Below are positions 35,458-39,085 of a DNA stretch of 64,000 bases, one piece after another (the stretch's first letter is position 1; every line of letters starts with the position of its first letter). The DNA is from Sulfurimonas sp. HSL3-7 (GTDB lineage: Bacteria > Campylobacterota > Campylobacteria > Campylobacterales > Sulfurimonadaceae). The stretch is taken from positions 930,001 through 994,000 of the forward strand of contig NZ_CP147919.1 in the NCBI RefSeq assembly GCF_039645985.1, given 5' to 3'. Under the pieces are notes generated by a model. It saw nothing but the letters and a program-made list of their open reading frames with translations, was not told where the DNA came from and searched no databases. The position numbers and the translations under genes were made by a program.

Positions 35458-36349
35458 AAAGATTGTAGCCGAGTGTCTGTAAAAACTCTTTGTCGTTAGT
35501 CCATCCTTTTTTTACAGAGACGAATAGATCCAAATAGACAGGTTTGCCGCCGAGTCTTTCAATTTTTGCTCGGGCGTCTCGACCGATACGTTTGATGGCC
35601 GCTCCTCCCTTACCGATAATAATCCCCTTTTGACTCTCTTTTTCGATAATGATCGTGGCACGAATGTGTTCAACACGTTTGTCCTCTTCGATCTTGTCGA
35701 TGACGACATCAGATTCATAAGGGATCTCATCACTGATATTGTCAAAGATTGCTTCGCGGATAAACTCTCTGTAGATATCACGCATCATCTCTGTTGTGAG
35801 GTCTTCCGGATCATAAAGATAAGGCGAAGTGTCAAGGTGCTTGACAATAACGTCAAGCAAATCGTTTTTACCGACATTCTTTGTCACAGACATCGGTATC
35901 AAGGCTTCAAATTTTGAGGCAAACTGATTGTATTCACCAATACGTTCTAACAGCTCCTGCTGGGAGACTTGATCAATCTTGGAGAGGGCGATAATATGCT
36001 TTCGGTTTTTACCGTCGACCTCTAAAAAGTGCTGGTAATGTTTAATGGAATCGCTTGCCGGTGCTAAATATACAACAAGATCACAATCGCCTATCGCTTT
36101 GAGTGCCTCTTCAAGCATATACTGGTTCAGCATCTTCTCTTTTTCATGCAGACCGGGTGTGTCAACAAAGATGATCTGATCGTCATGATGCATGACGATT
36201 GCGTTGAGTCTTCTGCGTGTCGCATTGGCTTTTTGTGATACCATAGCGATCTTTTCACCCAGGATCCAGTTGAGCATGGTGCTTTTCCCGGCATTCGGAC
36301 GCCCTACGAGAGCGACAAATCCGACCTTGTGTTCTGCTGTATTACTCAC
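35456..36349 (-). CDS. era: GTPase Era
   Basis: 297-residue GTPase that binds 16S rRNA during 30S maturation. G1 GRPNAGKST, G3 DTPGLH and G4 SKID are present, followed by a C-terminal KH domain (GKGGAAIKRIGRDARAKIERLGG split over the GXXG loop). Start is GTG at 36349, overlapping rplI by 8 bases. In several Campylobacterota hslV and hslU lie between rplI and era; here they are absent. Confidence 0.97.
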   Translation of the reverse strand: MSNTAEHKVGFVALVGRPNAGKSTMLNWILGEKIAMVSQKANATRRRLNAIVMHHDDQIIFVDTPGLHEKEKMLNQYMLEEALKAIGDCDLVVYLAPASDSIKHYQHFLEVDGKNRKHIIALSKIDQVSQQELLERIGEYNQFASKFEALIPMSVTKNVGKNDLLDVIVKHLDTSPYLYDPEDLTTEMMRDIYREFIREAIFDNISDEIPYESDVVIDKIEEDKRVEHIRATIIIEKESQKGIIIGKGGAAIKRIGRDARAKIERLGGKPVYLDLFVSVKKGWTNDKEFLQTLGYNL

Positions 36350-36788
36350 CGATTACCTCTAGATGAATCGTTGCATGCATGGCATGGCCAAGCTTGAAGT
36401 CAAGATCATAACTCCCTGTTGCCTTGATGGTCTCTTTATGGTTGATATGTTTTTTATCGATCTCAATGTTATGCTGCTCTTGCAGTGCCTGTACGATCTC
36501 GTCTTTTGTTACTGCGCCGAAAAGACTCCCGCTGCTGCCAAGCTTTTTTGTAACAGTCACTTTGAGTTTGTCCAGTTTCTGTGCAAGTGCTTTCAGCTCT
36601 TCGATCTCTTTGGCTTCATCTTCTGCCTTTTTGCGTTCGTTTGAAGCATGTTTTTTCAGTACTTCGTTAGTGGCAACTTTTGCAAAGCCTTTGCCGACTA
36701 AAAAATTTTTACCGTAACCGTCTTTGACCTCTTTCACTTCACCTGCTTTACCTAGCCCTTTAACATCTTTGATCAGTAGTACTTGCAT
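36342..36788 (-). CDS. rplI: 50S ribosomal protein L9
   Basis: 148 residues, normal for L9: N-terminal MQVLLIKDVKGLGKAGEVKEV with the GKNFL motif, long connecting helix (about 40-75) and C-terminal domain. The ATG at 36788 has AGGA 7 bases upstream. It overlaps era, suggesting joint translation. Confidence 0.96.
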   Translation of the reverse strand: MQVLLIKDVKGLGKAGEVKEVKDGYGKNFLVGKGFAKVATNEVLKKHASNERKKAEDEAKEIEELKALAQKLDKLKVTVTKKLGSSGSLFGAVTKDEIVQALQEQHNIEIDKKHINHKETIKATGSYDLDFKLGHAMHATIHLEVIGE

Positions 36789-37011
36789 CAATATTCCTAA
36801 ATTTTATTTCTGTGTAATATTGTAGCAAGTGAAGGTAAAAAAGGAGATAACGATAAATAAGTGGCTTGCAAGAGATAGAGACAAGGCCCGCTTGGGTATA
36901 TCGTCTGCCTATCAAGAGAGCGTTTTTTGAGGTTGATACATCCGCTTTTCCTGAAAAAAGCCAGTGCATCAACCAAAGAAGGGCACCATTTTATGCTTTT
37001 TTAGGTGGCAA

Positions 37012-37731
37012 TTACGCCTCTTTTTCACCGGGATATGACACGATTCCATAGGTGATGTTGCCGACCTTTTTATACCCCATATCGCTCAAGATACGGGCAC
37101 AATGTGCACTGCGGCTGCCTACATGGCAGTAGAGGATGATGTTCTCATCATGAGAGAGTTTGGCCTCTTCCAATGCCTGGAAAAAACTGCTGGTCGGGAT
37201 GAGCTTGTCGGCACCTTTGATATGGCCCATCTGCCACTCCATCGGCTCACGTACATCGACAAGTTTAAAATCAACCATACCCAGCTCACGTGCTTCAAGA
37301 AGAGCCATCACTTCATCACCGTCGAGCTCGTCTTTATCAACAAGAATGGCACACTCTTTTTTGCTTAGGCCACGCGAATGTTGATGAACGACCTCTTCGA
37401 TAGTTTCGCTTTGTGCCTGGGCTGCAGCGTATTCGGGTGTACAGAAGATCTGGCAGTGACAGACACCATCTTCCGGAATCTCTTTTTCAATAGCCGGCGT
37501 GCATGGACAGACACGGTCATCCGGTTCACCTGTGACAAAAAAACAGGGGCAGTAGCGCTTGCCGTGCATCATTTTGTTACGTGTCAGGCCGAACTGAATA
37601 CCCTGGTTGATCTCGGGATCGGGGTTGTAGGCCCAGCCGAACTGTTTGACGACCTTGTCGGTAAAGCGGATCGTTTTTTCGAGGGTCTCTTTAAACTCTT
37701 GTGATTCAGGATCGATTTTGATGGTGCTCAT
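37012..37731 (-). CDS. ferredoxin-thioredoxin reductase catalytic domain fused to rhodanese
   Basis: 239 residues with two recognisable parts. Residues about 5-105 match the catalytic (beta) chain of ferredoxin:thioredoxin reductase, with the three cysteine pairs CPC (61-63), CPC (75-77) and CHC (91-93) that hold a 4Fe-4S cluster and the redox disulfide. Residues about 150-235 form a rhodanese domain with active-site Cys202 (YCHVGSRSAH). The FTR part passes ferredoxin electrons to a disulfide; the rhodanese carries persulfide sulfur. The fusion suggests thiol reduction coupled to sulfur transfer, which is inference. No FTR variable chain is nearby. Located between rplI and argG on the same strand. 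Confidence 0.88.
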   Translation of the reverse strand: MSTIKIDPESQEFKETLEKTIRFTDKVVKQFGWAYNPDPEINQGIQFGLTRNKMMHGKRYCPCFFVTGEPDDRVCPCTPAIEKEIPEDGVCHCQIFCTPEYAAAQAQSETIEEVVHQHSRGLSKKECAILVDKDELDGDEVMALLEARELGMVDFKLVDVREPMEWQMGHIKGADKLIPTSSFFQALEEAKLSHDENIILYCHVGSRSAHCARILSDMGYKKVGNITYGIVSYPGEKEA

Positions 37732-37867: not shown

Positions 37868-39085
37868 CTATTTTTTATTGCGTGTTTTGCCGGCGATGAC
37901 GAAGCGCAGTGCATTAAGCTTGATAAAGCCTTCGGCATCTTTTTGGTTGTAGACTTCATCCTCTTCGAAGGTCGAATACTCTGCACTGAAGAGTGAATCG
38001 TCAGATTTCCGGCCGACCACAATAACATTACCTTTGTAGAGTTTAAGGCGGACGGTTCCGTTGACATAGGTCTGCGTGCTGTCAATAGCGGCTTGAAGCA
38101 TTTCACGTTCCGGCGAGAACCAGAATCCGTTGTAGATCAGTTTCGCATAACGCGGCATCATCTCGTCTTTAAGGTGGGCTGCCTCACGGTCAAGCGTGAT
38201 CGATTCGATAGCGCGGTGGGCTTTCAGCATGATGGTCCCGCCCGGTGTTTCGTAACAGCCGCGTGCTTTCATCCCGACGAAACGGTTTTCGACGATATCG
38301 ACACGGCCGATACCGTGTTTGCCACCAAGCTCATTGAGGGTTTTTAGCATCGTCGCCGGTGATAGTGCTTCGCCGTTTAGTGTTATCGGATCGCCGTTTT
38401 GGTAACCGATCTCAATGTACTCCGGTTCATTCGGTGCGTTTTCAGGTGAATTTGACCATAGCCACATGCTCTCTTCCGGCTCGGCATTAGGATCTTCAAG
38501 GATACCGCCTTCGTAAGAGATGTGTAGGAGGTTCGCATCCATAGAGTAAGGGGATTTTTTACCTTTTTTCTCGATCTTGATGCCGTGTTCCGCAGCATAG
38601 GCCAGCAGCTTTTCGCGGGAGTTCAGATCCCATTCACGCCACGGCGCGATGATCGTCAGTGTCGCATCCTGGCCCAGGTAACCCATCTCGAAGCGGACCT
38701 GATCGTTTCCTTTACCGGTCGCACCGTGGCTGACGCCGTCAGCACCTGTGATCCTGGCGATCTCGGCCTGGCGTTTTGCGATCAGAGGACGGGCGATGGA
38801 AGTGCCCAACAGGTACTCACCCTCATAGATCGTATTGGCACGGAACATCGGGAAGACATAATCCTTTACGAACTCTTCACGAAGGTCGTCGATGAAAATG
38901 TTTTCGGGCTTGATACCGAGTTCAAGTGCTTTGACACGGGCCGGTTCGACCTCTTCGCCTTGACCAAGGTCAGCGGTAAAGGTAACGACTTCACACTGAT
39001 ACTCATCTTGCAGCCATTTGAGGATAACACTTGTATCTAGTCCGCCGGAGTAGGCGAGTACAACTTTTTTAACTTCTTTTTTCAT
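37868..39085 (-). CDS. argG: argininosuccinate synthase
   Basis: 405-residue cytoplasmic enzyme joining citrulline and aspartate with ATP in arginine biosynthesis. The N-terminal P-loop [15 protein letters not shown], the [15 protein letters not shown] motif and the [18 protein letters not shown] motif are diagnostic and length is standard. A hairpin follows the stop. Confidence 0.98.

Follow-up and report, generated by a model that had tools for sequence, protein, structure and literature searches.

Domain organization of the fusion gene

The window analyzed here, a 64,000-nucleotide stretch of the Sulfurimonas sp. HSL3-7 genome, contains between rplI and argG an open reading frame that runs from an ATG start to a stop codon and encodes 239 amino acids (Table 1). 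Pfam places two domains in this single chain, as had been predicted: the catalytic domain of ferredoxin-thioredoxin reductase (FTR; FeThRed_B, PF02943), at 109 bits against a cut-off of 22, and a rhodanese (PF00581), at 59.4 bits against a cut-off of 22.2. The FTR catalytic (FTRc) domain exceeds the curated cut-off of its family and has the cysteine order CPC...CPC...CHC, and the rhodanese combines its profile match with a catalytic cysteine in a CxxGxRS loop. The three cysteine pairs and the rhodanese Cys202 named in the original prediction are thus all present (C61-P-C63, C75-P-C77, C91-H-C93, and C202-HVGSRS). The linker motif between the domains, HxHSRGL, shows no variation in 44 close orthologues and is relaxed in family f5 and in some members of f7.

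Table 1. Positions of the fusion gene, its domains, conserved sites, and flanking genes in the window
Feature	Position	Strand	Evidence
rplI	36342-36791	(-)	Flanks fusion gene
FTR catalytic domain-rhodanese fusion protein, 239 aa	37012..37731	(-)	ORF, translation, Pfam, orthologues
Single-domain-type rhodanese, residues 151-232	37036..37281	(-)	PF00581 E 5.1e-16; Foldseek rhodanese-domain matches
Rhodanese active-site loop C202-H-V-G-S-R-S	37108..37128	(-)	Cys in 145/145 fused proteins
Interdomain linker HQHSRGL, residues 116-122	37366..37386	(-)	HxHSRGL across orthologues
FTR catalytic-type domain, residues 17-115	37387..37683	(-)	PF02943 E 1.5e-31; aligns with 4tpu, 7pwe, 1dj7
Cys97, seventh conserved cysteine	37441..37443	(-)	143/145; other residues there in PDB relatives
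C91-H92-C93; C91 predicted ligand, C93 predicted half of active-site disulfide	37453..37461	(-)	1dj7 alignment; 145/145
C75-P-C77, predicted [4Fe-4S] ligands	37501..37509	(-)	1dj7 alignment; 145/145 fused proteins
C61-P-C63; C61 predicted cluster ligand, C63 predicted half of active-site disulfide	37543..37551	(-)	1dj7 alignment; 145/145
argG	37868-39085	(-)	Flanks fusion gene

Gene neighborhood

The rplI/argG context had been noted to give no pathway hint, and the wider comparison agrees: no partner gene is common to the 60 fusion-bearing contexts, and synteny is family-specific only. The order argG-fusion-rplI-hslV-hslU-era is usual in families f1 and f8, and other families differ. Assignment of a pathway from gene neighbors was therefore rejected, as the neighbors in these contexts vary between families and include no sulfur pathway. 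For two small neighbors conserved in f5, Pfam gave no match, and no Rfam match to an RNA element was found near the fusion gene. A terminator-like hairpin between argG and the fusion gene suggests that the latter may be transcribed alone, with the reservation that such sites are not commoner than in shuffled sequences.

Some arrangements around the fusion gene recur locally, and none of them is general. In f5 genomes and in one f9 genome (G249), a stand-alone FTRc gene, as called, shares 1-14 bp with the start of the fusion, an overlap that suggests translational coupling of the two. An additional solo rhodanese gene lies near the fusion in G006 and G208. In a single case (G134), korABC-like genes end 135 bp upstream of the fusion; from their sequences they probably encode a 2-oxoglutarate:ferredoxin oxidoreductase. 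Separately, hslV and hslU are missing at the rplI-era junction of HSL3-7 (36342-36349), though they lie between rplI and era in relatives; a search of the HSL3-7 genome gave no HslV match at E 0.001.

Conservation and spacing of the cysteines

The cysteines of FTR have established roles as cluster ligands and as the redox pair. Alignment of the fusion with Synechocystis FTRc (1dj7) matches C61, C75, C77, and C91 to the cluster ligands and C63 and C93 to the redox pair. In 145/145 distinct fused proteins, the six FTR cysteines and the rhodanese cysteine are kept without exception. The conservation scan would have detected replacement of an FTR cysteine by Ser or Ala, and of the rhodanese cysteine by any residue; more divergent changes would escape it. 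The seventh cysteine, C97, is retained in 143/145 fused proteins and is also present in stand-alone FTRc paralogues; the position holds other residues in the solved relatives, and neither plant FTR nor archaeal ferredoxin:disulfide reductase (FDR) has the cysteine.

The spacing between the cysteine pairs differs from that of plant-type FTR, in line with the original prediction: X11/X13 in the fusion, as compared with X16/X8 in 1dj7 and X14/X12 in 4tpu. Among the 145 distinct fused proteins, the first loop contains 11, 12, 14, 17, 18, or 19 residues, whereas the second always contains 13. Because the first loop is free to vary while the second is constant, the spacing is a trait of the family and not peculiar to the HSL3-7 protein. 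The free variation of the first loop also led us to reject unusual spacing as a mark of new function.

Distribution in Campylobacterota

The survey of the domain fusion proposed together with the original prediction was carried out with searches centred on Campylobacterota genomes. A full-length, stop-free fusion was found in 142/397 of these, a count tallied from the list of matches to an alignment of the fusion, and matches of any kind to this alignment were found in 217/397. The 142 include all 52 genomes sampled from the host's family, and the fusion is present in eight families (f1, f4, f5, f7, f8, f9, f10, and f11). The fusion protein thus occurs across free-living relatives of Campylobacter, and its stop-free recurrence allows an assembly error or a chance join to be dismissed. 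Among the best 80 matches of a contig scan, the titles name Campylobacterota or carry no lineage, and a search of plasmids returned matches from Sulfurovum only. One genome (G327, L169) carries two fused FTRc-rhodanese genes in tandem.

Stand-alone and split genes

FTRc also exists as a stand-alone protein, including in HSL3-7 itself, where a 111-aa FTRc (G000:C1:1599475-1599771; L001 1501-1836) has a spacing of 17/13 and 61% identity to the fusion over the domain. A MsrB-like gene lies near it. Elsewhere, FTRc and rhodanese are encoded by neighboring genes. In Sulfurovum mangrovi, an FTRc gene is followed 65 bp on by a separate rhodanese gene, the product of which has 48% identity to the rhodanese of the fusion; in five f4 genomes the two are adjacent genes with stops and a spacer between the reading frames. 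The rhodanese loop of the split pair in one of these (G264) reads CRTDNRS.

The trees place the split FTRc genes in a single clade (98/86) amid the stand-alone FTRc and the split rhodaneses beside the f4/f11 fusions (96/91); the fused FTRc domains do not group as one clade. With FTRc drawn from the stand-alone clade and a rhodanese nearest to that of the fusion, the two domains appear to have been paired twice, as judged from trees of short domains with many weak branches. That the two domains were simply joined by chance and tolerated, with no catalytic cooperation, would fit the existence of stand-alone FTRc; it is nevertheless very improbable, considering that both active sites are intact in fusions of eight families and that FTRc and rhodanese are paired again as adjacent genes.

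Two further observations concern these genomes. A 202-aa FTRc in G061 (L142), with X14/X12 spacing and no Cys97, resembles the FDR type. The genes gatC, dapE, and pilT lie on the 395-kb linear "plasmid" of Sulfurovum mangrovi (L147, NZ_CP087125.1), which may be part of a chromosome.

Relation to thioredoxin reduction

The FTR variable subunit (FeThRed_A) is absent from the HSL3-7 genome and from 150/150 genomes searched, with a positive Synechococcus control. The HSL3-7 genome encodes a thioredoxin-reductase homologue, scoring 341 bits, just under the 343-bit cut-off. Taken together, these two results make a chloroplast-style FTR role unlikely. The canonical heterodimeric FTR was rejected for want of the variable chain (0/150 genomes), and the X11/X13 spacing of the fusion also departs from the canonical X16/X8.

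A related alternative is that the fusion reduces disulfides of thioredoxin or another protein with electrons from ferredoxin, and that its rhodanese, instead of being the substrate site, serves for docking or regulation, by sensing sulfane sulfur or by guiding a partner. The FTR and FDR relatives do reduce disulfides with a [4Fe-4S] cluster (PMC7278568), a glutaredoxin fusion of the FTR/FDR family is known (7pwe), and the plant rhodanese-like protein TROL docks ferredoxin-NADP reductase (PMC12295754). However, the thioredoxin-reductase homologue already in the genome makes a plain thioredoxin-reductase role less needed, and pure docking would not demand a catalytic cysteine and GSRS loop that never vary in the rhodanese. 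We regard this alternative as unlikely.

Co-occurrence with sulfur oxidation and carbon fixation

Among the 150 genomes, the FTR domain was found in 45, including 37 of the 38 with ATP-citrate lyase and all 33 with SoxZ; eight FTRc-bearing genomes do not have ATP-citrate lyase. Kinship and lifestyle confound these associations, the FTR-negative families being presumably host-associated. The original prediction had placed the fusion in a sulfur-oxidising lineage, and this part stands: both SoxZ and ATP-citrate lyase were found in the HSL3-7 genome, in keeping with a lineage that oxidises sulfur and runs the reductive TCA cycle. The fusion is not tied to sulfur oxidation, because it also occurs in genomes without SoxZ, as it does in genomes without ATP-citrate lyase.

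Independence from Sox-type sulfur oxidation would suit a sulfur-delivery protein, as would the intact active site of the rhodanese. In this reading, the rhodanese would pass persulfide sulfur on to an acceptor in biosynthesis, be it of cysteine, of thiolated products, or of clusters, and the FTR domain would hold C202 in the reduced state or set the sulfur free as sulfide for assimilation. On the other hand, no biosynthetic sulfur gene is found among the shared neighbors, and others among the 16 rhodanese-domain matches in the genome could serve. Such a role seems unlikely.

A candidate ferredoxin-dependent persulfide reductase

By analogy with NADH persulfide reductase (Npsr), in which a CoA-disulfide-reductase-type domain is followed by a C-terminal rhodanese whose cysteine is the first sulfur acceptor (PMC7969121), the reductase-plus-rhodanese layout leads us to favor, tentatively and at somewhat less than an even chance, a ferredoxin-dependent reductase of persulfides (sulfane sulfur) or mixed disulfides. 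A flow of ferredoxin electrons to a persulfide would fit the anatomy of the protein and the fact that its two active sites are strictly conserved together. Also in its favor are the spread of the fusion over eight families, the recurrent association of the two domains, the lack of an FTR variable chain in the 150 genomes alongside a thioredoxin-reductase homologue, and, in one genome only, the nearby korABC-like genes. Against it stand the varied gene neighbors, which point to no sulfur pathway, and the confounded co-occurrence with SoxZ and ATP-citrate lyase. Four elements of this route are inferred: the cluster, the donor role of ferredoxin, the way the electrons flow, and which sulfur compound is the substrate. 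Rhodanese C202 would accept sulfane sulfur from thiosulfate, polysulfide, or a low-molecular-weight persulfide. Reduced ferredoxin would charge the FTR-type domain via a [4Fe-4S] cluster in two successive one-electron transfers, and the domain would open the C63-C93 disulfide and reduce C202-SSH with release of sulfide. C97 might be an additional relay or a resolving thiol.

The AlphaFold model of the fusion (mean pLDDT 83.7, pTM 0.60) is confident for the rhodanese and poor at the cluster-binding loops (pLDDT <50 at 78-84). Foldseek retrieved mainly rhodanese domains, including those of CoADR-RHD, Npsr, and persulfide dioxygenase-rhodanese fusions; the Grx-FDR fusion 7pwe was a weak match.

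A broader proposal is doubtful, namely that the fusion serves the whole phylum as a ferredoxin-dependent persulfide reductase and so parallels, with iron-sulfur chemistry, the NADH enzyme. Sulfur-using autotrophs would then convert sulfane sulfur to sulfide at the expense of ferredoxin electrons, and Cys97 would be a relay dedicated to this reaction. Campylobacterota are major sulfur cyclers of vents and sediments. If the persulfide-reductase reading is true, an enzyme would connect ferredoxin directly with persulfide chemistry in this phylum, and the FTR/FDR family would reach beyond disulfides to sulfur in bound form. Even with an ordinary substrate, the fusion would be a small, highly conserved protein for which we found no published description.

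Comparison with known systems

FTR and rhodanese domains are well known, as are fusions of each with other redox domains. In the literature searched, which takes in only a minority of subscription papers, we found no published description or test of an FTRc-rhodanese fusion; an earlier one may exist elsewhere. The nearest NCBIfam model to the FTR domain of the fusion is the FtrB family double selenoprotein NF041072, which has 121 positions and spans this domain only; the score of 75.7 bits is below the 160-bit cut-off, and the fusion has cysteine in place of selenocysteine. The plant and cyanobacterial FTR catalytic subunit (PF02943) shares the six cysteines, the CHC motif, and the presumed cluster and disulfide arrangement. 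The fusion family differs from it by a spacing of 11-19/13 (16/8 in FTR), by Cys97, by the C-terminal rhodanese, and by the absence of a variable subunit.

By sequence, the closest solved structures to the FTR domain of the fusion are those of FDR (the Methanosarcina acetivorans type, 4tpu, and the Desulfotalea Grx-FDR, 7pwe). FDR is likewise fused to another redox or thiol domain, but its partner is rubredoxin or glutaredoxin rather than rhodanese, its motif is CYC rather than CHC, and it has no Cys97. Npsr and CoADR-RHD (3icr, 3nta) share the layout of a reductase domain with a C-terminal rhodanese, the cysteine of which takes sulfur. Their reductase, however, is a flavin/NADH/CoA enzyme of unrelated fold; Pfam finds only FeThRed_B and Rhodanese in the fusion and no FAD/NAD pyridine nucleotide-disulfide reductase domain, and the fusion is predicted to be an iron-sulfur ferredoxin enzyme.
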